From a virus, in the IMG/VR virus record IMGVR_UViG_3300023170_000023, positions 1-64,000 of that record: a stretch of 64,000 nucleotides of DNA. One strand, given 5' to 3'. Each line of letters begins with the position of its first letter. The first letter of the stretch is position 1. The translations under genes and the position numbers were made by a program. Positions 20,301-63,581 of this stretch are shown here, one piece after another. The notes below the pieces were generated by a model. The model made no database searches, was not told the origin of the DNA, and saw nothing but the letters and a program-made list of their open reading frames with translations.

Positions 20301-23300
20301 ACGTTGACAGCGTCAATAGTAATTTGTTTTTGATCGCTCAGAACATATGCAGAGTTTGCTCTTTGATATGCATTACCTGCCGTGTTTGTGTTGTAATCTG
20401 TACCCAGAATTAAATCTCTAGATACCGCTTTGATAATTTCTTCAACATCACGGGAACACTTATCTACATCATATTCGAATCCTATACCATCATAGTTCTC
20501 GAAAATATATGTTGTAGTATCATCAATAAGAGTTTGATAATTGTTTATAATGTCTTGCGCTTGGGCAAATCTTGTGTTAGAATACGTTCCTGCTCCGGTA
20601 TCAACCCAACCACCAATAACTCCGGGTTCAGTAATAGTTCCGTTAAGAACATTAAGTACGTTGACAAACAGGTAGTTGAGATCTAGACCCGTAAGAGTAA
20701 AAATTTCATCCCTGACAAAATTGACTGCGTCTATCGTCGCTTGTTTCTGATCCGATAGAACGTAAGCAGAGTTTGCACGTAAGTATGCAAACCCAGCAGT
20801 TTTAGTCCAGAATGTAGTACCAAGAAGAAGGTCTCGTCTCACCGCATCAAGAATTAATCCTACGTCCCGAGCACACTTGCCTGCATCATATCCTGCTAGT
20901 TGTGTTGCCCAATTTAAATTGACATAGTCGATAGTTGCAGCTTGAGTTGCTGAGATTCCCGCTATTATAGCATCAAATTCTGTGGTGTCAAGTCCTGTTG
21001 TAACGACCTGAACTTCAGCAGGCAGACCAACTAGTCCGTTTTCGATAACATCCGTGATGACATCAAACTTTAATCCTGCAGCATTTTGCTCTAAGGTAGT
21101 AGCAATGATTGCTTGGGTTCTAGTTTTAAGATCGTTATAGGCAGCAACGGTTGCTTCAATTTCTCCGTTGCCTAATTGAAGCACACTACCTACGTAGTAA
21201 GCTTCTGCGTTAGTTCGGGTTGCAGTGTTACCACCGTATTGAACATCATGAGCAACAGCGTCTAGGATATACCCAGCATCTCGTGCACATGCTGCTTGGT
21301 CATAGAAAGAATAATTTGTTTGACCATACAGTAAAGTTGCATCACTAATAATAGTTTTGTTGTTTGTTATAGCATCAAATTCTGTAGTTGTCAACCCTGC
21401 GGTGCTAATATCTACTTCTGCGGGTACGCTATCAACATTACCTGCGGTGATCGCATCTCTGGTGATGTCTATAAGTTCTGCTACCCTAACATCTTCGGTG
21501 ACGTTTGTCAACCCTTGAATTTCAGAAATGAGATGTCCATATGCTTCAACGGTGATAGGACCTTCTCCGGTTCCTAACAATGAAACAGCAAACGAGTAGT
21601 ATGCTAAAGCAGCACTTCTCGAAGCGGAGTTGCCGCTATACAAAAGGTCATGCAACAAAGCATCAATTAAAAACCCTGTGTCTCTTTCGCATGCAGCAAC
21701 ATCATATCCAACGAAAGTGTTAACAAAGTCTATAACTACTTCTTGTGTTGATGTGATGTTAGATTGCAATTCGTCAAACTCTGTAGTGGTCAGTCCAGCA
21801 GTACTAACTTCTACTTCAGCAGGCAGACTATTTAAGTTGCCTGCAGTCAAAACTCCTGTTATAATATCAACCAATCCACCAACAACTGTTTGTTCAGCAG
21901 ACGTAGTGACCACCGAATTCAGTCTTGTTTTCAGATCATTGTAAGCAGCGATGGTTGCTTGAGTTTCGGTTTCACCTTCAGAGTTGACACCGGGTCCTAA
22001 TTGTGATACAGTGCCGACAAAATATGCTTCTGCATTAATTCTAGTACCTACGTTACCACCATACTTGACATCGTGTGCCAAAGCATCTAAGATATATCCT
22101 ACGTCTCGCTCACAAGCATCCTGATCGTAGTTCTGATAGAATTCTCTTCCGTGTGCGATGGTGTCGCTTGTAATAGTAGATTCCGCAGCAGTAATAGCAT
22201 CAAACTCTGTGGTAGTATAACCAGCAGTAGAAATCTCGCTGAGTGCAGCAATACTGTCCACATTACCTGCAGTGATTACACCAGTCGTAATACCGATAAG
22301 TTCGTCAACGCGAGCATCTTCTGAAACATTAGTGAGTGCCTTGATTCGTGTTGCCAAATCATTGTATGCTGCTACGGTTGCAGACTCTTCACCGGAACCA
22401 AGTTGTGCGGTTCCAAAAGAGAAGTATGCGAGTGCAGCATCTCTAGAAGCAGAGTTACCACCATAAGTCAAGTCCGCAATCAAAGCATCGATAATCATCC
22501 CCGTGTCTCTTTCACACGTTGCTACATCATAAACCAGTAACGGGAAGTTAACATTAATGTAAGCAGTAGTATCTGAGATCAAAAGTGCTCTGTTATTAAC
22601 AAGATCGTCTCGTTGCAGATCTCTTGAATTAGAACCTGCGTAGGTTCCTGTAATTGGGAACCCAGTTGGTACTTGAATGGTAGAAATCGTAGTGTCTAGA
22701 ATGTCAGTGACTCTCTTGAACAAAGTGTCAATCGTAGCATCACTAGTTACGTTAGGAAGTGCCTTGACTAAATCCCTAGCATATTCCACCAAAATTTTAG
22801 TTACGGCAGACTGTGTGCTTAAAACATAAGCGGAAGCACCACGCAGATAAGCGTTACCTGCAGTCAGAGTCCAGTAGTCAGATCCAGTCAAAAGATCTCT
22901 TTCTACTGCATCAAGGATTAACCCAAGGTCTCGCTCACACGTAGCACCAATATCTAAATCAAACCAGTTCTGACTGATATAGGTAGAAGTTCCTTCAATC
23001 AAAGTTTGACGGTTTGCTTGGATTGCTGCAGCAGCGGCAATACGATCAGCAGTTTGATATGTTGATCCAGCAGTCGTAGGATAATTGATTGTAGGATACG
23101 CAGGAGGCGTATCTGAAATGAAACTGGTTACTCTTGCAAACAGAGTAGTAATAGTAGCATCGCTAGTGATAGCAGGAAGTGCTATCAAAGTATCTCTTGC
23201 AAGATTTACTGCATCAATTGTAATTTGCTTTTGGTCACTCAGAACGTAAGCAGAGTTTGCTCTTTGATAAGCGTTACCAGCAGTGTATGTATTGTAATCG

Positions 23301-29867: not shown

Positions 29868-30242
29868 CTACGCTTTAGTAACAGAAGGTGTTACCTGAAG
29901 TGTGCCTTCAAGTATACGCTCTATAATATAAGTGAGGTTACCTGAACCATCAGAATCACTGACATAGGAAAGTTCAACGTCATAGACATAACGTTTCTTA
30001 GTACTTAAAAGATCGGTTTGAAGGTTAGTAAGGGAAAGATTTACAATTCCATCCGTTGCAGGATCTGCAACTATCCCAGTGAATGCAACTTTCTCGCTTG
30101 AGTCTGCAGCATAGTTAGGTTTCAACCATGCATTCACTGAGTAATTAGTAAGATCTTTTTTACTTTTGTCTTTGTTGATCAGGTGAAGTTCGATTGCAAC
30201 ATCTGTACCTTGATCAATAGTGATGTCTTCGTAATAAGCCAT
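29868..30242 (-). CDS. BppU-like small baseplate/fibre-associated protein (124 aa)
   Basis: A 124-residue beta-rich protein with the layout of the N-terminal domain of phage upper-baseplate proteins. A DITIDQGTDVAIELHLINKD strand pair comes first, then KDLTNYSVNAWLKPNY, then a variable loop and a YVYDVELSYVSDSDG strand. Such domains bind fibres to the baseplate in siphophages and occur as small stand-alone proteins in marine T4-like phages. A late promoter TATAAATA lies 31 bases before the ATG. It is the first gene of the operon that continues with the 68-aa protein, the 915-aa fibre and the protease. The structural role is inferred from fold pattern and position. Confidence 0.6.
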   Translation of the reverse strand: MAYYEDITIDQGTDVAIELHLINKDKSKKDLTNYSVNAWLKPNYAADSSEKVAFTGIVADPATDGIVNLSLTNLQTDLLSTKKRYVYDVELSYVSDSDGSGNLTYIIERILEGTLQVTPSVTKA

Positions 30243-30272: not shown

Positions 30273-30280
30273 TATTTATA
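30273..30280 (-). promoter_or_regulatory. T4-type late promoter for the fibre/protease operon
   Basis: Exact TATAAATA on the minus strand, between the oxygenase gene stop and the ATG at 30242. It restarts late transcription after the sigma-70-driven cassette. Confidence 0.72.
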
Positions 30281-30289
30281 CGAAAACGA

Positions 30290-30994
30290 TTATTGATCCC
30301 GCTGAATATCCTCGATAATCCACTCTTGAAGTTTTTGAGATTGCTCAGACCTATCAAAAACAAAGGATATGGTCATTCTCCAGCATTCTGTTTTTGCACT
30401 ATGATAAACCAGATCAGCAGGATTGTCTTGGTAGGCAGCAAAATAACCTAGTTTGCACTGCCATCCGGGTTTGTCTTGCATTTTTATAATCTTACTTTTT
30501 CTTCTATCGAGATAAGAAAAGTCTCCTTCTCCTGTCTCACTCCAAGTAAAGATCACATTGTACGCAGAAGCATTGGCGTTATTGTGCCAAGCAATAAAAC
30601 CTCCGGGAGGATAAACCGCAAACAAAGCATTTGTTTTCAAACAATATTTAGTTTCTAAAGTTTCAAGGCAGTCCCATATTTCTTTCAGACTTTCTCTAAC
30701 TCTGGCAGGATTATGAGATTCGTTAATTAGAAACGTGTTGTGTTGGAGACTATAACTTTTAATTGTTGCTGGATATCCGTCATGTTCCTTGCCCTTTGCT
30801 ATAACATCTTTCAGATAAGGAATAGACGTATACCACTTCTGATCTTTTTCTGTGAAGTGCTCTCCACGCATCTTCATGTCCTGCAGGACATCATTGGTTG
30901 CAAACTTTTCTAGACGCTTTAAATCTTTGAGCAGATCAGAATTTCTTATAGGTATATCTTGCATATCACTTTGCGTACTTTGCTCGCATGTCAT
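30290..30994 (-). CDS. 2-oxoglutarate/Fe(II)-dependent oxygenase-like protein
   Basis: The C-terminal half has the double-stranded beta-helix pattern of 2OG-Fe(II) oxygenases. His137 lies in FIAWHNNAN and His198 in DLVYHSAK. Arg206, eight residues further (TECWRMTIS), fits the 2-oxoglutarate carboxylate ligand. The second metal ligand of the usual HxD/E motif is Asn139 here, which is unusual. Such oxygenases are common in marine T4-like phages, but their substrates are mostly unknown. The gene overlaps the glycosyltransferase by 29 bases if the first ATG is used. A second ATG at 30964 (residue 11) would start two bases after the glycosyltransferase stop and is equally possible. Together with the glycosyltransferase it may modify a virion protein, a glycan or a host component; this is inferred. 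Confidence 0.75.
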   Translation of the reverse strand: MTCEQSTQSDMQDIPIRNSDLLKDLKRLEKFATNDVLQDMKMRGEHFTEKDQKWYTSIPYLKDVIAKGKEHDGYPATIKSYSLQHNTFLINESHNPARVRESLKEIWDCLETLETKYCLKTNALFAVYPPGGFIAWHNNANASAYNVIFTWSETGEGDFSYLDRRKSKIIKMQDKPGWQCKLGYFAAYQDNPADLVYHSAKTECWRMTISFVFDRSEQSQKLQEWIIEDIQRDQ

Positions 30995-31715
30995 TTTTGC
31001 CTGCAGAATTAGAGTAGTGCATCACTATCGGGTTCTCGCAGTGATCATATCTATACCCGGCGAAGTAATTCCACCTTGCATCGTCATCACCATCAAGTCT
31101 TCCGATTTTGATATTCTCATATTTAGGGGTCTTGTTTAGCAACCACCATAAAGAAAACTGATCCCATCTGCGCAAAGATTCAGGATAGTTTTTGAAATCA
31201 GGTTGTCCATGCTTGTCAACTGGCCACCAGTCATGCGAGTATTGTTTTACGGTAAGGTCATACCAGTCATGCAAGAAGTCTGCGACTAAGGGTTTTGTCT
31301 TATCATACAAACAAGTACCACCACACCAATGGAAATGATCTCCTTCGGTGCCCCAATAATATTCTCTAAACATATATGATCGTTCTTCGGTAAGAGCAGT
31401 GAAAAGAATATCGTTACCGTTGAACTTATCGAAAATTGTTTTTACGTCTTCGTGAACGATTTCGCAGTCAGCATCGATGTAGAAAGTTTGATCGTAAGGA
31501 GAATTTGCCATACCCCAGATTTTAGATCTTCGATGATCAATACACGTTAGAACGTCATCTGCAATATCAGCACCACCAGTTTCTAAAAATCTTTCTTCCG
31601 CAACAAGGCAGACTTTAGCGTCCGGATAAAAATCTTTGATTGAATGTATTAAATTTAGAGCGGAGAAATAATAGAATTCTTCTGTGGAAGCAACGACGAC
31701 AAATCCTTTACTCAT
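30966..31715 (-). CDS. GT-A-type glycosyltransferase-like protein
   Basis: A 249-residue protein resembling nucleotide-diphospho-sugar transferases of the GT-A fold. It starts with a beta strand FVVVAS and has the layout of GT8-like enzymes. The metal-binding DxD motif is Asp81-Ala82-Asp83 in TFYIDADCEI. A substrate-site region HFHWCGGTCLYDK lies at about 127-139, and a late His in PIVMHYSN fits the third metal ligand. A strong Shine-Dalgarno sequence (GGAGGAGGA) directly precedes the ATG. It overlaps the 149-aa gene by 8 bases and the oxygenase by 29. The cassette stands behind a host-type promoter, so it may be expressed earlier than the surrounding late genes. The sugar donor and acceptor are unknown. 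Confidence 0.78.
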   Translation of the reverse strand: MSKGFVVVASTEEFYYFSALNLIHSIKDFYPDAKVCLVAEERFLETGGADIADDVLTCIDHRRSKIWGMANSPYDQTFYIDADCEIVHEDVKTIFDKFNGNDILFTALTEERSYMFREYYWGTEGDHFHWCGGTCLYDKTKPLVADFLHDWYDLTVKQYSHDWWPVDKHGQPDFKNYPESLRRWDQFSLWWLLNKTPKYENIKIGRLDGDDDARWNYFAGYRYDHCENPIVMHYSNSAGKNDMRAKYAK

Positions 31716-32157
31716 CCTCCTCCTCCAAAGATTTCATAAAGGCAACAGCGATCCAAGCGTTCATCTCCACTTCGTTTTTAGCAGCACGAATTTTAGTACG
31801 AACTCGTTTGTCTTTACACTCTCTGACTTCTTGAATCTCAAACGCTTTAAGTTTTTGAGCAAAAAGTTCTTCTAACTTAACAGACTTTTCTCTTTGTTTC
31901 TGTTTTAAAGATTGCTCATTCTTTTTGGTGATTTTTTCTTTTCGTCGCTGTTCCGTATTTTCATCTAACTTTTTAGGACCAATCTCTTCCATGAGTTGGG
32001 TCCACAAAGGATTGATCTTATCATCTACGAATTTAGGTACAGGTTGTTGTCGCCTATCAACAGAACCATCGTCTTGCTCAATACAATAGATGGACATTGC
32101 TTCGGTTTTTTCCTGATTTCTCCAGAAAGCGTTTTCTTGGAAAAAGGATTTTTTCAT
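31708..32157 (-). CDS. Hypothetical charged helical protein (149 aa), first gene of the sigma-70 cassette
   Basis: I do not recognise this protein. The first 55 residues are mixed (WRNQEKTEAMSIYCIEQDDG). Residues about 65-120 are very rich in Lys, Glu and Gln and should form a long helix or coiled coil. The C-terminus ends in an acidic EEEDE tail. No membrane segment or catalytic motif is visible. A GAGG ribosome site lies 8-10 bases before the ATG at 32157, and a consensus sigma-70 promoter lies just upstream. It overlaps the glycosyltransferase start by 8 bases, so the two are translationally coupled. A helper role for the two enzymes downstream is possible but not shown. Confidence 0.6.
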   Translation of the reverse strand: MKKSFFQENAFWRNQEKTEAMSIYCIEQDDGSVDRRQQPVPKFVDDKINPLWTQLMEEIGPKKLDENTEQRRKEKITKKNEQSLKQKQREKSVKLEELFAQKLKAFEIQEVRECKDKRVRTKIRAAKNEVEMNAWIAVAFMKSLEEEDE

Positions 32158-32180
32158 ACTATAGACCTCAAAATAATCTA

Positions 32181-32209
32181 ATTATATACTACTTCTATAT
32201 AGTTGTCAA
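32181..32209 (-). promoter_or_regulatory. Consensus sigma-70 promoter driving the 149-aa/glycosyltransferase/oxygenase cassette
   Basis: Minus strand reads TTGACA (32209-32204), a 17-base spacer, then TATAAT (32186-32181). Both hexamers and the spacer are the exact bacterial consensus. The -35 box directly follows the stop codon of the 2120-aa late fibre gene, and the ATG of the 149-aa gene lies 24 bases after the -10 box. Confidence 0.85.
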
Positions 32210-35200
32210 TTATTGTTGCGTATTAACTTGCATGGTAATGTTGACATCTACATCATCTGTGCCAGCACCAACTTTTCGTATTCGAACTCTTGCGGTGTCT
32301 AGGAAAATATCATTGTCGTTTGCAATTGAAGATCGTCCTCTAACGTTCCTAGTTGTGCCCAAAGTCACATAACCAACCGTTGTTCCGGTAATCGTTCCTG
32401 TGACTTGTGTGATATTAACTTCGTATTCAGATCCGATACCCACTTGCTTCGCTGCTTCTGGTAACCAGTTAGCATTTGGAGAAGCATTAAGAGGATCTGT
32501 TCTTGCATAATCTGGCACAGATAAAGAAACTAAATCACCATCAGATTGTAATGAGAAACCTGCTTGATATGAAGTACCACTGAAGTCCGGATTACCAAGT
32601 TGGTTGACCTCAAAATTGGTTACTGTAATTTGAGCATCGGCAAGATCTGATCCAGCGATAGAAGTATCGTTAATCGTAACAAAAATGTTCGTTGCAATTT
32701 CTGTTCCTCCGGTAGAGGAATCATACAGTCTCGCGTAGAAGGTCTCGTCACCTTCCGTTAAACTATCTTCATTAAATTGAATCTGCCCACTAAATCCCAC
32801 ACCACCAGTAATAGTGATAGGAATTCTGCTACCAACGCTTGTAGTAAAATCTGCATTCGAGGTAGTAATATGATCAATCTCAAGATAAACCGTAGAATAT
32901 GCAGTAGTAGCAACTCTGAACTCGATGTACCCATCTTCTGCATAATTGTGTGGAGCAGAAAGGAATTGAGATAATCCGGTGTCATACACTGCGAATCCTA
33001 CATTACCACCACCTGTATCTAACCCCTCATCAATTTTACAATACAAAGTATAAGTTTCTACGACAGCAACATCTGTTCCTACTTGAGAAGATGTTTCACC
33101 ACCAACAAACGGAGCAGTCGCACCAGTTTGTGTAAAGTTAGTTTCGTATATTATATCCAATATAAAGTCACCAATAAAATCACCTTCATATTGTATGTTA
33201 TCTTCGAACTGTATGACGGGATTAGTCTCGTCCTGAAACTGAATCGTCGGATTAGTTTCGTCTTGGAATTGTATAACGGGGTTAGTGTTACCTTCAAACT
33301 GAATCGTCGGATTAGTCGTTGGGTTAGTTTCGTCCTGATACTCCGCAACAAAATTAATTGTAGGATTAGTTTCGTCCTGATACTCCGCAACAAAATTAAT
33401 TGTGGGATTAGTGTTACCTTCATAAAGAATATCTAAGATGAAATCGCCTTCATATAAAATATCAAGGATAAAGTCAGCGATAAAATCTCCTTCATATAAA
33501 ATATCAAGGATGAAGTCTGCAATAAAATCGCCTTCATACTGTACTAAGTTATCAAAGTTGCCCTCGTAGAGAATGTTATCTTCATATTGAATTACTGGGT
33601 TTGTTTCATCTTGGAACTGAATGACAGGATTGGTGTTGCCTTCATAAAGAATATCAAGGATGAAGTCAGCGATGAAGTCCCCTTCATAAAGAATATCAAG
33701 AATGAAGTCAGCAATGAAGTCTCCAGTATATTGAGTTTCAAGAATGAAGTCTCCGATATAATCGCCTTCATAAACGATATCAAGAATAAAGTCAGCGATG
33801 AAGTCCCCTTCATAAAGAACATCAAGAATGAAATCCCCTTCGTATAAAGTGTCTGCTATGAAGTTTGCAATGAAGTCTCCTTCATAGACGATATCAAGGA
33901 TGAAGTCTGCAATGAAGTCTCCGGTATAGTTGATATCGAGAATGAAGTCTCCGGTATACTGAGTGTTACCAACATAAGGAGTTGTTTGAACGAAAGGTGC
34001 TGTGGTATTTGCAGTCGAAGAATCGTTGTCAACAGGACCAGTCAAACGAGCATAGTAAGTACCTGATTTAGGTCCGCTGAAAGTTTGTTGATAATCAACA
34101 TAGTAAGGCGATGGTGTTAAAGCATTAACCTTAAATTGGTGATTAGTCGAACCTGCAGCAGAACCTGAAACGTTTGTAATGTTACCTGAAGTTGCGATGA
34201 TACCATCATGATCAATATCAGAAACTAACACGTTAGCAAATGTCACGGAAACGGTGTCGCCGCCATTAGGCGAACCAGAATAAGTTACAGAAGGAGTCGT
34301 ATAAACAGATTCTGTATCATAATCCGAAACGTCTCCATAGAAGAATGTTACTACCACATTAATCGTTGAAGAAGACGCTCCTAAGAAATCACCAATATAA
34401 TCTACGTTACCAACGAAGTTTCCAATATAATCAACCTCGTCTAGGTAAGGGGCGGTTCCAACTGGATTACCAATGTAAGGAGTTTGTCGAATAAAGTCAC
34501 CGATGTAATCGACATCATCAATATAAGGCGCTGTTGGTGTAGGTTCAGCAACATATGTAATATCAAGAATAAAGTCGCCAATGTAGTTAACGTTATCAAC
34601 GTAAGGCGCTGTTGGATTTGTTTGTTGTGTATATCCTACGTTTCCTATGAAGTCACCAATGTAGTCAACGTTGTCCTGATAGTTAATCGTTGGGTTAGTA
34701 TTACCAACATAGTTGATATCAAGAATAAAGTCACCGATGTAATCAACGTTATCCTGATAGTTAATTGTTGGGTTAGTGTTACCAACATAGTTGGTATCAA
34801 GGATGAAGTCACCAATGTAGTCAACGTTGTCCTGATAGTTAATCGTTGGGTTAGTGTTACCGACGTAGTTTACGTTTCCTATGAAGTCGCCAATGTAGTC
34901 AAAGTTATATTGATAGTTAGCAGTAGTATTAAGGTCTCCAATATAAGGAGTAGCAGTTTTAACAGTTCCAATGTAGTTAATCGTTACATTAGGTTCAGCG
35001 GTATATCCTACGTTTCCTACGAAGTTACCAATGTAGTCAACGTTGTCTTGATAGTTAATCGTTGCATTAGGTTCAGCAAAATACTGAACGTTGCCGATGA
35101 AATCACCAATGTAGTCAACGTTATCAATATATGGAGTAGGAGTTGTAGGTTCAGCAAAATATTGAACGTTATCAATGAAGTCACCAACATAAGGAGTAGT

Positions 35201-38200
35201 CTGTTTTGGACCACCAATATAGTTAATCGTCACATTAGGTTCAGCAGTATACCCGATAGGGTTAGCAGAATTACCAATGTAATCAACGTTGTCTTGATAG
35301 TTAATCGTTGCATTAGGTTCAGCGGTATATCCTACGTTTCCTATGAAGTCACCAATGTAGTCAACGTTGTCTTGGTAATTAATAGTAGGTGTAGGTTCAG
35401 CAAAATACTGAACGTTATCAATGAAGTCACCAATATAAGGTACTTCTTGTGCTCCATCGCCAATATAATCGATAGTATAAACGAAATCACCAATGTAGTC
35501 AAGGTTATATTGATAGTTAGCAGTAGCATTAGGTTCAGCAAAATACTGAAGATCTCTAATGAAGTCACCGATGTAATCTGGATTATCCTGATAGTTAACA
35601 GTAGGATTAGTTTCACCAAAGTAGTTGATATCAAGGACGAAGTCACCAATGTAGTCAACGTTGTCTTGGTAATTAATAGTTGGGTTAGATTCACCAAAGT
35701 AGTTGATATCAAGGACGAAGTCACCAATGTAGTCAACGTTGGCTTGATAGTTAGCAGTAGGTGTAGGTTCAGCAACATATGTGATATCAAGAATAAAGTC
35801 ACCGATGTAATCAACGTTATCCTGATAGTTAATTGTTGGGTTGGTTTGTTGTGTATATCCTACGTTTCCTATGAAGTCACCAATGTAGTCAACGTTGTCA
35901 ATATAAGGTTCGAAGTAATTGGCATCTCCAATGTAGTCTACGTCACCAACGAAGTCTCCAATGTAATCAACATCATCGATATAAGGTGCTGAAGGAGTAG
36001 GTTCAGCAAGATAAGGTTCAGTGAAATTAGTTTCACTTACGTAAATATAATCCGCGATATAGTCAACATCAAGAATATAATCAATGTTGTCTTCGTATAC
36101 AATTGTCGGATTCGTTTCGTCTTGATATTGAATCGTCGGGTTTGTGGTTGGATTCGTCTCGTCCTGAAACTGAATCGTTGGGTTAGTTGTGTTATCCACT
36201 TCGCCCTGAAACTGTATGACAGGATTAGTTTCGTCCTGAAACTGAATCGTCGGGTTTGTGGTTGGATTCGTCTCGTCCTGAAAATCTCCAACATAATTAA
36301 TCGTAGGATTAGTATCCCCTTCATATACGATAGTTGGATTAGTAGTCGGATTCGTTTCGTCTTGGAACTGTATGACAGGATTCGTAGTCGGGTTAGTTTC
36401 GTCCTGATATTGAATATTTAATATAAAATCGCCTTCATAAAGAATATCAAGGATAAAGTCCCCTTCATACAAAACGTTTTCTTCGAATTGTACGTTGTCA
36501 ATAAAGTTTCCTTCAAAGACAATTGTTGGGTTAGTAGTCGGATTCGTTTCGTCTTGATACTGTATGACAGGATTCGTAGTAGGATTAGTCTCGTCCTGAA
36601 ACTGAATCGTTGGGTTCGTTTCATCCTGATACTGAATGTTGAGAATGAAATCCCCTATAAAATCTCCCTCGTAAATAGTATCAAGAATGAAATCTCCTAT
36701 GAAGTCTCCTTCATAAATGATATCAAGAATGAAGTCCGCAATAAAATCGCCTTCATAAAGAATATTAAGTACAAAGTCTCCTTCATATACGATGTCCAAT
36801 ATGAAGTCGCCCTCATACAAGATGTCTAAGATAAAGTCGCCTTCATAGATAACGTTATCTTCAAACTGAGAAGTGAAGTTTAGAGTCGGGTTTGTTTCGC
36901 CTTGATATTCAGCAATGTAATCTAACTGATAATCTGCGAGATACTGTTCTACGTCAGAGGTATAAGTTGTTTGGTTTCTGGTATCAACGGCGATTCCTCT
37001 AGACACCCAGATTCCGGGTTCAGTAGGAGAACCCTGTGCAGAAGACCTCAACTGATAAGTACCAATCCCCGTAGACTTGATAACTTCTTTTGCGCGTTCT
37101 CCTAATGTAGTAGATAGAACTGCATCACTGCCTTCTTTAATGCCAGCAAAAGTTCCAACACTACCGGAAGACCTTTCCACTGTCATCGCTTTACGCTTCG
37201 TGGGTACAGTCCCCGATTGTTTTATGTAAATAGAATAGTTTTGACTGTGTCCATCGTTTCTTGTATCAGTAAATACATTAGATAAGAAAACAGTCCAATC
37301 TGCACCGGGAGAAGAAGACGCAAGACGAAACACACCGGGGAACTCATCTCGCATAATCTTTTTAACAAGACGTTCGACAAGAACATCAAGTTCAGTGTCG
37401 TTCATCTCTTTCAATCCCGGAGGATTCTGTGTTTTATCCCACTGCAACAATCCTCGCCAATTCGCTTCGTTTCTCTGAGAAGCAACTGTTGTCAGATTTT
37501 GATAAAGACTGATAACATCTGAGTTTAAAGTATAACCACCGCCACTAGCGGCAACTCCGGTAAAAGTTAAAGTATAATATTGAACCGGATCTCCACCAGT
37601 GAGAGGTCCATCGTTAAAATATAATTCGCATGGTCCGGTTCCTGTTACTTCAACGGTATACTCGTATCCGATATCACCGCCCAGCGTTGAAGTAACAGTA
37701 TATGCAGACTGATTAGTAGATAATGCTTGATTCCAAAAAGGAGTCGGTGTTGCTCCTCCACCTAACGTAACATTAATAACAGTTCCTACTTCAACATTGC
37801 CAAGAGCATCAGTATCAGTATATAAAGAAGGATCGCCATTTACTTCTATTAAACCGGGAGATCCTGCATTAACCTGAATCGTTGAAATTTCAGTACCCAT
37901 GTTCCACGAATCAGAAGCACTATCAGGAGTAAGACCATCTTTCGATACAAGAACATTAAAAATAATATTCAACTCACCTTCACCTTCAACTACCATAGTA
38001 AAGGTCGATTGAAGGGTGCCAGAAGAAGGAGCACTAAATTGTGTACTGTCCCAAACAGCAGAAGTCGTAGTAGTAGAATTTGCAGTTGGTGAAGTCACGT
38101 TACTTAAAGAAACGGAACCCCCAGTTACTCCATCAACTGTAGTAGTAATATATTGACTAATTAATTCCGGTATACCGCCTGTTAATATATTGTAGTCTGT

Positions 38201-38572
38201 CTGAACGACAAAAGTAAGTGTGTCCCCGACCTGAACGGTAGATGGAACAGGACCAAAATTAGCAGCACCATCGGGAGATATTCTGGGAGCAGCAGCACTT
38301 AGGGATCCGTTCGCGGATCCTGATTCTACTTCCATGACCAGTGTTCCCAGATCATATGTCTGAGAGTTTACACTGCCGCTTGAACCACTATAATACGAAT
38401 CTGTGTAAGATCCGATAGCAGTTTTGGTGTCATCCAAACAGAGTGCCGCAGCAGAAGTAGTTGTCATCGTGCCTAGATGTACACCAGCACGATATGCGAG
38501 GTATTCTTCTTCAGTAAGAGTTAACTCTTGAAGCGCACCTGTACCTAGACTTTTTAATGGGCGTGATGACAT
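32210..38572 (-). CDS. 2120-aa virion fibre protein made largely of short anionic repeats
   Basis: The N-terminal 500 residues are non-repetitive. They start SSRPLKSLGTGALQELTLTE, a start seen in large structural proteins of marine T4-like phages, and later include a helical segment MNDTELDVLVERLVKKIMRD. Residues about 545-1400 and 1530-1810 consist of short units of three kinds: YEGDFILDI (16 YEGDF by my count), QFQDETNPTI (14 DETNP) and NYQDNVDYIGDF (the most frequent). A beta domain of about 135 residues interrupts them. The C-terminal 300 residues contain Calx-beta-like sequence (LTEGDETFYARLYDSS) and a final beta domain. Cyanophage fibres carry similar tandem YxGxF-type units, but the acidic variants here are distinctive. 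A late promoter lies 33 bases upstream. Probably a long, thin, negatively charged fibre; copy number may vary between relatives. Confidence 0.75.
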   Translation of the reverse strand: MSSRPLKSLGTGALQELTLTEEEYLAYRAGVHLGTMTTTSAAALCLDDTKTAIGSYTDSYYSGSSGSVNSQTYDLGTLVMEVESGSANGSLSAAAPRISPDGAANFGPVPSTVQVGDTLTFVVQTDYNILTGGIPELISQYITTTVDGVTGGSVSLSNVTSPTANSTTTTSAVWDSTQFSAPSSGTLQSTFTMVVEGEGELNIIFNVLVSKDGLTPDSASDSWNMGTEISTIQVNAGSPGLIEVNGDPSLYTDTDALGNVEVGTVINVTLGGGATPTPFWNQALSTNQSAYTVTSTLGGDIGYEYTVEVTGTGPCELYFNDGPLTGGDPVQYYTLTFTGVAASGGGYTLNSDVISLYQNLTTVASQRNEANWRGLLQWDKTQNPPGLKEMNDTELDVLVERLVKKIMRDEFPGVFRLASSSPGADWTVFLSNVFTDTRNDGHSQNYSIYIKQSGTVPTKRKAMTVERSSGSVGTFAGIKEGSDAVLSTTLGERAKEVIKSTGIGTYQLRSSAQGSPTEPGIWVSRGIAVDTRNQTTYTSDVEQYLADYQLDYIAEYQGETNPTLNFTSQFEDNVIYEGDFILDILYEGDFILDIVYEGDFVLNILYEGDFIADFILDIIYEGDFIGDFILDTIYEGDFIGDFILNIQYQDETNPTIQFQDETNPTTNPVIQYQDETNPTTNPTIVFEGNFIDNVQFEENVLYEGDFILDILYEGDFILNIQYQDETNPTTNPVIQFQDETNPTTNPTIVYEGDTNPTINYVGDFQDETNPTTNPTIQFQDETNPVIQFQGEVDNTTNPTIQFQDETNPTTNPTIQYQDETNPTIVYEDNIDYILDVDYIADYIYVSETNFTEPYLAEPTPSAPYIDDVDYIGDFVGDVDYIGDANYFEPYIDNVDYIGDFIGNVGYTQQTNPTINYQDNVDYIGDFILDITYVAEPTPTANYQANVDYIGDFVLDINYFGESNPTINYQDNVDYIGDFVLDINYFGETNPTVNYQDNPDYIGDFIRDLQYFAEPNATANYQYNLDYIGDFVYTIDYIGDGAQEVPYIGDFIDNVQYFAEPTPTINYQDNVDYIGDFIGNVGYTAEPNATINYQDNVDYIGNSANPIGYTAEPNVTINYIGGPKQTTPYVGDFIDNVQYFAEPTTPTPYIDNVDYIGDFIGNVQYFAEPNATINYQDNVDYIGNFVGNVGYTAEPNVTINYIGTVKTATPYIGDLNTTANYQYNFDYIGDFIGNVNYVGNTNPTINYQDNVDYIGDFILDTNYVGNTNPTINYQDNVDYIGDFILDINYVGNTNPTINYQDNVDYIGDFIGNVGYTQQTNPTAPYVDNVNYIGDFILDITYVAEPTPTAPYIDDVDYIGDFIRQTPYIGNPVGTAPYLDEVDYIGNFVGNVDYIGDFLGASSSTINVVVTFFYGDVSDYDTESVYTTPSVTYSGSPNGGDTVSVTFANVLVSDIDHDGIIATSGNITNVSGSAAGSTNHQFKVNALTPSPYYVDYQQTFSGPKSGTYYARLTGPVDNDSSTANTTAPFVQTTPYVGNTQYTGDFILDINYTGDFIADFILDIVYEGDFIANFIADTLYEGDFILDVLYEGDFIADFILDIVYEGDYIGDFILETQYTGDFIADFILDILYEGDFIADFILDILYEGNTNPVIQFQDETNPVIQYEDNILYEGNFDNLVQYEGDFIADFILDILYEGDFIADFILDILYEGDFILDILYEGNTNPTINFVAEYQDETNPTINFVAEYQDETNPTTNPTIQFEGNTNPVIQFQDETNPTIQFQDETNPVIQFEDNIQYEGDFIGDFILDIIYETNFTQTGATAPFVGGETSSQVGTDVAVVETYTLYCKIDEGLDTGGGNVGFAVYDTGLSQFLSAPHNYAEDGYIEFRVATTAYSTVYLEIDHITTSNADFTTSVGSRIPITITGGVGFSGQIQFNEDSLTEGDETFYARLYDSSTGGTEIATNIFVTINDTSIAGSDLADAQITVTNFEVNQLGNPDFSGTSYQAGFSLQSDGDLVSLSVPDYARTDPLNASPNANWLPEAAKQVGIGSEYEVNITQVTGTITGTTVGYVTLGTTRNVRGRSSIANDNDIFLDTARVRIRKVGAGTDDVDVNITMQVNTQQ
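33145..36960 (-). repeat. In-frame short tandem repeats of the 2120-aa fibre gene
   Basis: Degenerate repeats of 24-45 bases encode the units YEGDFILDI, QDETNPT(TNPT)I and DNVDYIGDF. They run from about 36960 down to 34380 and again from about 33985 to 33145, with a unique domain between. Synonymous changes between copies show selection on the protein rather than recent simple expansion, though some blocks are nearly identical (for example around 34670-34870). Confidence 0.8.
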
Positions 38573-38604: not shown

Positions 38605-38612
38605 TATTTATA
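38605..38612 (-). promoter_or_regulatory. T4-type late promoter for the 2120-aa fibre
   Basis: Exact TATAAATA on the minus strand, 33 bases before the ATG at 38572 and just after the stop of the 26-codon remnant ORF. Confidence 0.75.
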
Positions 38613-50545: not shown

Positions 50546-52023
50546 ACTAAGAATCTCTTGCTTTTCACGTCTGCGGGGTTATTGCCCAAAGGTTTGTAAC
50601 CAAATTTCTTCTGTTTAGATCTATTTGAAGTTCTACCAATCTTACCATCAAACGCTTTTGCGAAATCAGTAGACAGTAAACCTTCTGCGACAAGATTGTT
50701 CGTAAACTCTTTGTTATTGAAATTAGCGGTGTCCCGGATCTTAGAACGGATCTCATCAATAGTAGGATCACGATCAAACAAGTCTTTGTAATCGTCCGTT
50801 TTCAGAATCTTAGAAACGAGAGAGTTTGGATCTTCGATGTCCGTATCCACAATTACCTTACGAATAGCAAAGTTACTCACTGCCAAGTGTGGAGCAATAA
50901 GTTCTGTTGTCGGTTCTGGTGCATCCGGTGGAGTTTCGATAAAAGGGAAAATAGTTTCATACTTCTCCGGTTCTTTCACACTAGGCGCGGAACCAGAACC
51001 ATTACTATGAGTTTTTGCTTTACCAGCACCTTCAGCATATTTGGCAAAGGGAGTTTGTCCTGCTTTGTTTGCGAAATCAGCAGTGATTGCCTCTGCCGCT
51101 CGACCCACGAGAGTTCCGTAGAAAGTCGTACCGCCGTTTCCTGCGCCTTCTGGAGGTCCAGAATAGACTTTACCGTAGTGATCGACCAATGTGCCACCGA
51201 TGGTTCCTTTCGTCCCCAGAACAGACACAGTGATTCCTGTGATGTTCGTGGTCTCTGATGATGCTGCCCACTCACTCTCTGCCGTAGTCACAAGACGATT
51301 CCCAGAAGTGAGTTCTACATCACCCTCTACCCAATTGTTCTGATCCCCCTTGACAAACACATAATTATCTGATAATAAGGTTTGTGTGTGAGTTCCAACA
51401 ACTCGACTGCTCTGCGAACCCTTGATCGTTGAATTATGGTTGTTATCGAATGTACCTGTATAACTACCATGCACTGCTTCTTCTTTATTACCAGCAACGT
51501 CAACGTTAATGTTTCCATCTACGGTGAGATTATAGTCTCCGGTGACTCGAACGTTGAGATTGCCTTTGTAAACAAGGTTACCCTCACCCTCAACGATAAC
51601 AGTGTGGTCTCCCCCAGTGACTTCGACCTTTTTATTAACCGCAGAAAATAGCACAGATCCATCAGCACGAAGTTCTAATCCTGCTCCCGTTCGATGTTTC
51701 ATGATAATTCGTTCACCACCGGGAGTGTCATCTATTTCCCATGAATGTCCTGCGGGTGTTTGCTGAACCTGATTGAACGGATATTGAGACGGTTTCTGAT
51801 CCGGAAGTTCTATCGAGACGTTTTTATCGCCACCACCACTAAACAATTGTGTAGTGGTTTCGCCTTTTGCTGCCTTATTAGTAGAAGTTCCAAAATAATA
51901 ATCTTGTGTAGGGTATTGACCACTAGCGTCAGAGAATCCTGTTTGAGGTACTCCGAGTGTGTCTTCCTGACCTTCGCCCAGTTTCTGGATACGTGTTACT
52001 ATATTATCTTCTTTGGTTGTCAT
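50542..52023 (-). CDS. Central spike beta-helix protein (separate gp5 C-terminal needle)
   Basis: Residues about 75-130 (QYPFNQVQQTPAGHSWEIDDTPGGERI, then MKHRTGAGLELRADGSVLFS) match the start of the needle part of T4 gp5 and VgrG proteins. Residues about 130-290 hold octapeptide-like V-x-G repeats (VTGGDHTVIVEG, VRVTGDYNLTVDG, VDVAGNKEEAVHG), the signature of the triple-stranded beta-helix. T4 gp5 has OB-fold, lysozyme and needle in one 575-residue chain; here the needle is a separate 493-residue gene. The C-terminal 200 residues (about 300-493) are not beta-helical and could hold a tip or chaperone-like domain. It overlaps both neighbours by 4 bases. Confidence 0.85.
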   Translation of the reverse strand: MTTKEDNIVTRIQKLGEGQEDTLGVPQTGFSDASGQYPTQDYYFGTSTNKAAKGETTTQLFSGGGDKNVSIELPDQKPSQYPFNQVQQTPAGHSWEIDDTPGGERIIMKHRTGAGLELRADGSVLFSAVNKKVEVTGGDHTVIVEGEGNLVYKGNLNVRVTGDYNLTVDGNINVDVAGNKEEAVHGSYTGTFDNNHNSTIKGSQSSRVVGTHTQTLLSDNYVFVKGDQNNWVEGDVELTSGNRLVTTAESEWAASSETTNITGITVSVLGTKGTIGGTLVDHYGKVYSGPPEGAGNGGTTFYGTLVGRAAEAITADFANKAGQTPFAKYAEGAGKAKTHSNGSGSAPSVKEPEKYETIFPFIETPPDAPEPTTELIAPHLAVSNFAIRKVIVDTDIEDPNSLVSKILKTDDYKDLFDRDPTIDEIRSKIRDTANFNNKEFTNNLVAEGLLSTDFAKAFDGKIGRTSNRSKQKKFGYKPLGNNPADVKSKRFLV

Positions 52024-53879
52024 TCTGGTATCCTTGTTGTGACAAGTTCTGACGGTGAGAAAGGACCTCTAGCAGAGGGATCTTCGAACAATGATTTTTT
52101 GTTGAACAAATCATCGACATAATCTCTTACATCAAAACCCGGATCTTCTTCTAAAACGTCTATATCATTATGTCCAAGGATTTGTCCTCCCGGATATCGA
52201 GAATAGAAGGCAGCACAAAAAGCATTAAACGTATTCATTTGTGCAAGAGTCAAAGATGACACCCCTCGATAAGAACCCGGAAACGCAGTACCTGAAGGAG
52301 CATTGATACCACCGACAAAAACTAGTCCGATGCTATACTCGTCATGTCCGTTTACATTAGCGTGTTCGCCTTGTTTGTTGACTGGTCTGCCCCTTTGTAA
52401 TGAACCGTCTCTTCGAATAACATAATGATATCCTATACCACTAAGACCTAGATCAATATGAATTTGATTAATCTCTTCTGATCCAATATTCTTATTCGTG
52501 TAAGTATCAGTCCAGTGTACAATAACTTCTGTTACTTGACGAGAGATAGAGTTAATATCCGCTTGCAATTCTTCTACTGAAGACACATACGAAAACTTCG
52601 CTCCCTTGTCTTCGAAATTTAAAGTAGAACTAAGATCAAACGGATCCGCAAAAGCAGACTCTTCATTCTCTATTACCACACTTCCTGCAATGGTTGTGTT
52701 AAGGTCTTCTAATCCTGCCCTAACTTCATCTGGGGTTTTACCGGAAGATTTAGAGATAATGTCAACCGCTTTATCTCTTTCCGCTTGATCTCCTTGTGCC
52801 AGAGTAATAACCTCGTCCCTATCTAAAGAAGTTAGATTGGGTGCAAGACTTCTCATGATAGTGGTACCTTGCCCGGTTTGTTTTTCCGTAAATCCCTGAA
52901 GCAACCCTGACTTGGAATCGCTAACAATGGTACCTACCGTTTTATCATAAGCATCTCTGCCTTTTGATAATTGGTTTAAATTATCATCTAATCCTTTTTT
53001 AGCATCTGAAAAAACAGACTCTCCGATTTTTCCTGTTTGTTCCTGAAAGTCTGTTTTGAGTTTGTCTTGGTTAATGTCAATATTTTGCGTGAGACCATCT
53101 GCAACTTTGGTAACCGACCCTTCGACAGCAGAGGTTAAAGCAGCACCTTGACTTTGAAGTGCTGTAACTGCGTCGGCACCGCTTGCCACCCCTGCTAAAT
53201 TTTTTCCAACATCACTAGCAGCGGCAGTAGCACCCGCAGGCAACGAACCCAAACCTGACACTGCATCATTGATCGCACCCTCAGCGGTTGCTGCAAGATC
53301 ATTTGCCTTTGCGGTAAGTTCATTCAGTGCGTCTGCACCGGGAAACTTGCCTAGATTCCCCTTTGCTTTTTCAAGCAAACTCAACTGTCCTTTCGGCATC
53401 ACATTACCAGCAATCTTTTGTACGTATCCGTCAAAAACTTGCAACCCGGTGACTTTGGCAAGCATAGCATTAATAGATTCATCTATTTGAGAACTAGGAT
53501 CAATTGAAGACGATATCGGATAAACATTTCCATCAGAATCCGGGTCACTCCAAGCAATAGCAATCTTGACTGCACTTTTTGTTTTTGCTGGTAGAGAACC
53601 AAAGTCGTTTACTGCTCCTTCGAGGGCAGACAACTGATCAGTGACCACCCCTTCAACTGCACCCGCATTCAATTTACCGGACACATCTTTCGTTAGATTC
53701 GTAACACTCTGAATACCACCATTAATTTCGCCTGTAACCTGCCCCACCTTTGTCTCGGTTGCATTAGCAAAAGAGGTTTGAGCATTTGTCGCAGCATTTT
53801 TAACACTACCTTCATACGCATCATTTACAGAGGCAACCGTCTGGTTTAGATTAGTTTTTATTGTTTCTTTAGTTGTCAT
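52020..53879 (-). CDS. Virion-associated N-acetylmuramoyl-L-alanine amidase (Amidase_2/PGRP-like) with long N-terminal region
   Basis: Residues about 448-592 form an Amidase_2 (T7 lysozyme/AmpD type) domain. The zinc ligands are His455 (IVHWTD), His570 (ILGHNDID) and Asp579 (EEDPGF). The conserved tyrosine is Tyr484 (GIGYHYVIRRDG), and GEHANVNG at 505-512 also matches the family. The family's active-site Lys, two residues before the third ligand, is Glu577 here. Residues 1-390 are Ala/Ser/Gly-rich and probably helical, with repeats such as GAINDAVSGLGSLPAG. It lies between the OB-fold/lysozyme-like gene and the spike, overlapping each by 4 bases. It is therefore probably carried on the hub and cuts peptidoglycan stem peptides during entry. 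Confidence 0.85.
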   Translation of the reverse strand: MTTKETIKTNLNQTVASVNDAYEGSVKNAATNAQTSFANATETKVGQVTGEINGGIQSVTNLTKDVSGKLNAGAVEGVVTDQLSALEGAVNDFGSLPAKTKSAVKIAIAWSDPDSDGNVYPISSSIDPSSQIDESINAMLAKVTGLQVFDGYVQKIAGNVMPKGQLSLLEKAKGNLGKFPGADALNELTAKANDLAATAEGAINDAVSGLGSLPAGATAAASDVGKNLAGVASGADAVTALQSQGAALTSAVEGSVTKVADGLTQNIDINQDKLKTDFQEQTGKIGESVFSDAKKGLDDNLNQLSKGRDAYDKTVGTIVSDSKSGLLQGFTEKQTGQGTTIMRSLAPNLTSLDRDEVITLAQGDQAERDKAVDIISKSSGKTPDEVRAGLEDLNTTIAGSVVIENEESAFADPFDLSSTLNFEDKGAKFSYVSSVEELQADINSISRQVTEVIVHWTDTYTNKNIGSEEINQIHIDLGLSGIGYHYVIRRDGSLQRGRPVNKQGEHANVNGHDEYSIGLVFVGGINAPSGTAFPGSYRGVSSLTLAQMNTFNAFCAAFYSRYPGGQILGHNDIDVLEEDPGFDVRDYVDDLFNKKSLFEDPSARGPFSPSELVTTRIPE

Positions 53880-62637: not shown

Positions 62638-62703
62638 AGTGCATATCACAGCGAGACACTGCACTCCCTTTGCGGGATACCCAAGGTGATTAACCCACTC
62701 GCT
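62638..62703. other. Structured intergenic segment between tape measure and gp32
   Basis: Three nested or overlapping inverted repeats are visible: AGCGAG (62650-62655) with CTCGCT (62698-62703); CCTT ... AAGG enclosing GGG-ATA-CCC (62667-62686); and AGTGCA (62638-62643) with TGCACT (62660-62665). It overlaps the gp32 stop codon. It may protect or end transcripts from both sides. Confidence 0.5.
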
Positions 62704-63581
62704 TAATCTTCTTCTGCTAACCTAGCAAAATAGGACATGGTGTCATCGTCATCATCAGATGCGATAGAAGGTTCCGGAGCAGTCTTACGTGCAACAGGTT
62801 CTTCAATTTCTGCTAACTCAGGATGATACCCTTTGTTATTTGCTTCACCAAGAACCATCAATAGACGTGCTTGCAACTCGTCGTATGACTTGTAGTTCGC
62901 AGGATCAATAAACTCATTCAGATCGTAACACTTTTCGTAGATTTCTTCTAACTCTGCATCGCTTTCAGACAGTTCAGAAGGTGCAGCAAATTCTGATTTA
63001 TCGTAGTTGCGATATCCCTCAAACTTACGAATCTTCAGTTTGAAAGATGCACCGGACCAGAAGTCGAAAGGGTTCATTGGTTCTTCGTCCTGAAACTCAG
63101 GATTCATAACGTCCATGATTTTGTCATGGATTTTCTTACCATAGGTGAAGAGCATCACCTTACCTTCGTTTTCGGGGTTACCCGGATCTTGCTCGACGAG
63201 CACATTTGATACGTAGTGCAATCTACGCTTACGTTCACGTGCAATTTCTTTGTCACGATCATCGCCAGAGTTCCACAGTTTGCTGTTTGCTTCAGAAACT
63301 GGGTCTTGTTGTCCAATAGAAGTCAAAGACTTCTCAATGTACCATTGACCAGTTGGACCCTTGAACCCATGATCCCAGTAGCGAACCCATGGGAGGTCGT
63401 TACCTTCAGGAGCAGGCAGGAATCGCAGAACGGCATAACCGTTTCCTGCTTTATCTACCGTGGGTTTCCATTGACGCTCATCGACATAAGACTTTGTTGC
63501 TGATTCCGTGGTAGGAGCAGCAGCAGAAACTAGACGTGAGATTTCGGATGCGCGATTGCGCTTTAATGCTTCAAAAGACAT
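62703..63581 (-). CDS. gp32: Single-stranded DNA-binding protein gp32
   Basis: T4 gp32 type, which coats single-stranded DNA in replication, recombination and repair and organises gp59, gp41 and the polymerase. Matches include AGNGYAVLRFLPAPEGND at about 46-63, YWDHGFKGPTGQWYIEKSL, DPGNPENEGKVMLFTYGKKIHDKI at about 153-176, and FEGYRNYDKSEF. The C-terminus is acidic (SDDDDDTMSYFARLAEED), the usual protein-contact tail. T4 gp32 binds zinc through one His and three Cys. Here the three Cys positions (after WYIE) are lost and only one Cys is left in the whole protein. It has 292 residues (T4 301). A promoter and an A-rich repeat leader lie upstream, and a terminator lies downstream. Confidence 0.96.
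   Translation of the reverse strand: MSFEALKRNRASEISRLVSAAAPTTESATKSYVDERQWKPTVDKAGNGYAVLRFLPAPEGNDLPWVRYWDHGFKGPTGQWYIEKSLTSIGQQDPVSEANSKLWNSGDDRDKEIARERKRRLHYVSNVLVEQDPGNPENEGKVMLFTYGKKIHDKIMDVMNPEFQDEEPMNPFDFWSGASFKLKIRKFEGYRNYDKSEFAAPSELSESDAELEEIYEKCYDLNEFIDPANYKSYDELQARLLMVLGEANNKGYHPELAEIEEPVARKTAPEPSIASDDDDDTMSYFARLAEED

Follow-up and report, generated by a model that had tools for sequence, protein, structure and literature searches.

In T4-like cyanophages, host polymerase in its unmodified form is believed to transcribe the early genes, and S-PM2 and RB49 have been proposed to combine early with late control (PMC2984593). In the cyanophages S-PM2 and Syn9, as at the locus described here, a sigma-70-like motif stands before early and middle genes and a TATAAATA-type motif before late genes (PMC2984593). 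Unlike the S-PM2 and Syn9 early promoters, however, the site analysed here lies within the virion region, ahead of a fibre-adjacent enzyme operon. The overlapping control of RB49 and S-PM2 (PMC2984593) resembles the present case in that one gene set can be reached both from an early-type promoter and through late transcription; the sets of RB49 and S-PM2 are replication genes, whereas here the late mode would be read-through from a fibre gene, the operon having no TATAAATA of its own. Pelagimyophages, which like the phage studied here are T4-like and marine, carry glycosyltransferases in the tail-fibre and host-recognition region, and an aspartyl/asparaginyl beta-hydroxylase is core to the group (PMC7029224). 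Their glycosyltransferases have been proposed to modify host LPS (PMC7029224), whereas modification of the fibre is suggested here, and PF05118 was absent from the five records in which it was sought.

The window, that is, the whole 64-kb stretch of DNA analysed, belongs to a T4-like marine phage and carries genes for the baseplate wedge and hub, the neck, head closure and a gp32-type single-strand binding protein. Within the baseplate gene run, the product of positions 52020–53879 is 619 aa long and bears an amidase domain at its C-terminus; upstream of the gp32-like gene (62703–63581) stand both TTGACA and a ACTATATACT box, a mixture of the two promoter elements discussed below.

The sequence-only reading had placed a perfect TTGACA-17-TATAAT consensus at 32181–32209, and this is borne out: in TTGACAACTATATAGAAGTAGTATATAAT (32209–32181, minus strand) both hexamers are exact (12/12), the -35 element TTGACA at 32204–32209 beginning 1 nt past the TAA stop codon (32210–32212) of the upstream gene REP and the -10 element TATAAT following at 32181–32186 after a 17-nt spacer. 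The spacing falls within the 16–18 nt of primary-sigma promoters, and a same-strand ORF, U149, follows with room for a leader and a Shine-Dalgarno sequence; the gap between REP and U149 is 52 nt, of which 23 nt separate the end of the -10 element from the U149 ATG. From promoter geometry, transcription is predicted to start at 32174 on the minus strand, 7 nt past the -10 element, which would give a 17-nt leader, and GAGG at 32166–32169 (minus strand) is the probable Shine-Dalgarno sequence of U149.

Exact TTGACA/TATAAT pairs with spacers of 15–19 nt were found twice in the 64 kb, against 0.13 expected from shuffles of the window; the second, at 20964–20991 with a spacer of 16, is internal to an ORF of 3524 aa and was set aside as probably due to chance. 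Promoter-like matches as such are not in excess, 45 being found between 25000 and 44000 against 52 expected by chance, and the site before U149 is the sole 12/12 match among the 45. It could be supposed that this site has little or only incidental activity in vivo and that the cassette behind it is effectively a late operon, transcribed by read-through from REP. This explanation is considered improbable, since an exact consensus in so small a gap is itself improbable (when these 64 nt were modelled as a first-order Markov chain, it arose in 1.2e-4 of samples) and since other lineages have the motif at this position too, as described below.

The class to which the site belongs can be approached through related phages. 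C48C1, a member of the Kyanoviridae whose 156-kb record is marked as complete and the only phage of the annotated collection that encodes U149 together with the two following cassette genes, GT and OX, contains 12 exact copies of TTGACA-17-TATAAT, all on the gene-rich strand; they precede gp55, gp47, gp45, gp43, a methyltransferase gene and small genes or lie upstream of gp41, and often stand 28–34 nt from the downstream ATG. Across ten IMG/VR records the exact motif gave 65 matches, compared with 0 for the reversed motif, and the copies with an annotated downstream gene precede gp43, gp46, gp47, gp55, gp41, gp62 and primase. When a single mismatch was tolerated and a distance of up to 120 nt allowed, in eight of these records, C48C1 and the window, the motif was found before 25 of 122 replication or early-class genes versus 0 of 245 late genes (p = 2e-13; related phages are treated as independent in this p-value and in the one below); it also precedes 5 of 10 U149 genes, a proportion inflated because four of those phages were picked for having the promoter. 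By the same count TATAAATA stands before 66 late genes, 7 early genes and none of the U149 genes. A less biased comparison places the motif before U149 in 7 of 49 distinct relatives versus 1 of 211 neighbouring genes (p = 4e-5), the seven including L015, whose gap leaves no room, so that the match falls inside REP. Judged by these sequence patterns, the site is most likely a host-sigma-70 promoter of the early/middle class of this phage group; because the motif occurs before early and middle genes and is absent before late ones, early or intermediate expression of the cassette is likeliest, and its genes can probably be activated before the neighbouring ones.

Meanwhile, the surrounding region is served by late promoters, as had been noted earlier: the window has seven TATAAATA copies, every one of them on the minus strand and 6–44 nt upstream of an ORF. 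One of them, at 30273–30280 (minus strand), had been described as a fresh late promoter following the cassette; the motif is present, but it is not fresh, being the own promoter of T124 (29868–30242, minus strand; PHROG 3304, 'L-shaped tail fiber protein assembly') and ancient, since it is kept before T124 in 49 of 50 relatives. Upstream of U149 the T4-type late promoter was found in 0 of 48 relatives. The promoter of REP itself is the TATAAATA at 38605–38612 (minus strand). No minus-strand terminator-like site is listed near either end of the cassette in the window and none between REP and U149, and late read-through from 38605 into the cassette is therefore expected; the same lack of a terminator favours an incidental site. 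Of the proposal that the cassette is probably expressed early and independently, the first half is thus supported, given the early/middle-type motif, and the second is not.

The operon itself is far more constant than its promoter. In the 80 best GT matches in IMG/VR (contigs that were found through GT), the order REP-U149-GT-OX-T124 is kept in 80 of 80, apart from ends cut by the contig; on gene order, the cassette is an old, core part of the tail-fibre module and not a recent insertion. This bears on the earlier comparison with a moron, taken here as an accessory cassette that has its own promoter and acts on the host. An early-type promoter between late genes, as judged by sequence, and enzyme-like products dispensable for the particle core would suit such a cassette, and morons in the lambdoid sense must bring along both a promoter and a terminator, their base composition usually being odd (PMC1524935). 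Here only the promoter corresponds: the cassette is not sporadic, no terminator of its own was found in the window, and its GC content of 38.7%, compared with 40.5 ± 1.7% around it, is ordinary, so that a moron is very unlikely indeed and the comparison is abandoned.

The promoter, in turn, comes and goes. Exact copies at the homologous site are present in L050, L064, L065, L068 and L080, and L004 has one that matches at 11/12 positions; the sequence contexts differ, and in relatives bearing a promoter before U149 the -35 element often overlaps the REP stop codon. In 25 distinct relatives, about half, there is no usable gap before U149 and no promoter there; the cassette must rely on read-through in these phages, and early expression is therefore not essential. 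The nearest relative, L003, has a gap of 48 nt without a promoter. This absence from a sister phage and from about half of the relatives again speaks for an incidental site, against which stands the recurrence just described. The strong-promoter state shows about six changes on the GT tree, which marks the promoter as a repeatedly gained and lost addition to an old operon. Joint conservation of promoter and cassette had been suggested as a check; conservation holds for the cassette, but the promoter is shared with only six other distinct relatives and is missing from L003.

In sister lineages the gap contains further elements. In about 14 relatives, going from REP towards U149, a sigma-70-like element at the stop codon of REP comes first, then a hairpin with a T-run, then a TATATA[AC] box and finally the start of U149. 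The hairpin is supported by compensatory changes, 93.9% of cells being paired versus 36–50% when the alignment is slid, with four double-change pairs. At L064:4416-4533, L054:508-610 and about 12 similar loci this covarying terminator hairpin lies within about 20 nt of the sigma-70-like element, which, if used, would yield an RNA of only roughly 40 nt. Because the terminator hairpin is downstream of it, the sigma-70 element cannot simply drive the cassette in these lineages, which speaks against the explanation preferred below. Of 23 relatives with a gap, 18 have the box no more than 70 nt from U149, compared with 1 of 22 for T124, and in the window, as in L050, the extended -10 sequence TATATAAT (32181–32188, minus strand) coincides with it.

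The main alternative to a plain sigma-70 promoter is that the functional element might be the TATATA[AC] box, as a cassette-specific promoter of another class (a late variant or a -35-less middle type); in the window TATATAAT would then be the box, and the TTGACA at 17 nt would be secondary or strengthening. The concentration of the box near U149, its position as the sole promoter-like element downstream of the terminator in sister lineages, and the presence of CTATATATAAG before the late gene gp8 of C48C1, where gp8 of the window has TATAAATA, are consistent with this explanation. However, in C48C1 TATATAAT also serves as the -10 element where gp43 and gp45 are preceded by ordinary sigma-70 promoters, the box precedes both early (17/122) and late (14/245) genes, and L004 has the sigma-70 site without TATATA[AC]; a role of the box as the actual promoter is regarded as rather unlikely.

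The products of the cassette offer few database clues, as searches of U149, GT and OX against Pfam, PHROG and solved-structure profiles gave nothing confident, a DNA-level search of the phage collection gave no match, and within that collection OX and GT match C48C1 alone. U149 (31708–32157, minus strand) is a conserved 149-aa protein of no assigned family, with no Pfam or PHROG match; its AlphaFold2 model (pLDDT 94) shows a short beta N-terminus, a 45-residue helix and a helical C-terminus. GT (30966–31715, minus strand) has an invariant DAD (DxD) motif and is a putative glycosyltransferase of the GT-A type; 14 of 22 members give a weak PF00535 signal, with a best E of 0.007. OX (30290–30994, minus strand) is a putative 2OG-Fe(II)-type oxygenase, weakly assigned, with invariant H137-x-N139, H198 and R206; it has no family match in Pfam, and its phrog_81 hit (E 0.078) comes from one member only, so that the name oxygenase is a motif-level guess. 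The cassette of an unknown gene, a glycosyltransferase and an oxygenase announced in the sequence-only reading is accordingly present as three ORFs, with weak or no database support for the enzyme names. The upstream neighbour REP (32210–38572, minus strand) encodes a 2120-aa, Asp/Asn/Tyr-rich tandem-repeat protein, a putative fibre and possible substrate of the cassette. Its tandem repeats are of 14, 26 and 10 residues, and it is very variable among relatives.

The explanation preferred here, and thought on balance probable, is that the site is a real early/middle-class promoter, read by the host polymerase and driving U149-GT-OX, that late read-through is added to it, and that the products prepare the fibre in advance. 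Host RNA polymerase with the primary sigma factor would read the site, and in early or mid infection a transcript from near 32174 would carry U149, GT and OX; in the late phase, read-through from the REP promoter would add to the cassette transcripts, making this a dual-mode operon. The motif, where it sits, its association with one gene class across the genomes and the synteny are shown here; promoter activity, timing, enzyme function and substrate are inferred. The promoter would let putative fibre-modifying enzymes accumulate ahead of fibre synthesis, and the products would then prepare or modify the giant repeat fibre, its repeats being oxidised, glycosylated or both, while U149 would serve as a helper. 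That the cassette modifies the fibre is probable from the adjacency of the genes, and the location beside a giant fibre gene also fits the earlier suggestion that the products must be present before virion assembly. A comparable helper is the product of T4 gene 57A, a fibre chaperone made early and late and encoded outside the fibre operon; like the role proposed for the cassette, it is available ahead of the fibre. A more specific version, in which a hydroxylase-GT pair made from the host-sigma-70 promoter acts with U149 on the Asp/Asn/Tyr-rich fibre during its synthesis, the promoter having been gained repeatedly at one spot, is offered tentatively and is doubtful as a whole; it would amount to a post-translational modification system for receptor-binding fibres that is expressed early. 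The preferred explanation makes a specific, testable prediction, namely that certain genes of the tail-fibre module escape late-only control; attention is also drawn to three adjacent genes, conserved but unannotated (without a Pfam family or a confident PHROG one), that accompany giant repeat fibres in T4-like marine phages not yet in culture. Modification of the fibre, if it occurs, would bear on host recognition.

OX also occurs outside the cassette, with three paralogues in C48C1 (L083 141011-153029; C48C1 18267 and 40130). One C48C1 paralogue adjoins a gene for the tail tube, close to that of the major head protein, and the same pairing is seen in the metagenome-assembled contig of L128/L129. 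An OX match in a bacterial genome (L128/L129) was rejected as a host gene, being on a phage contig in a metagenome bin; this contig, JAAXIF010000028.1, is binned as Sphingobacteriales, bears phage structural and replication genes and is probably a misbinned phage contig.
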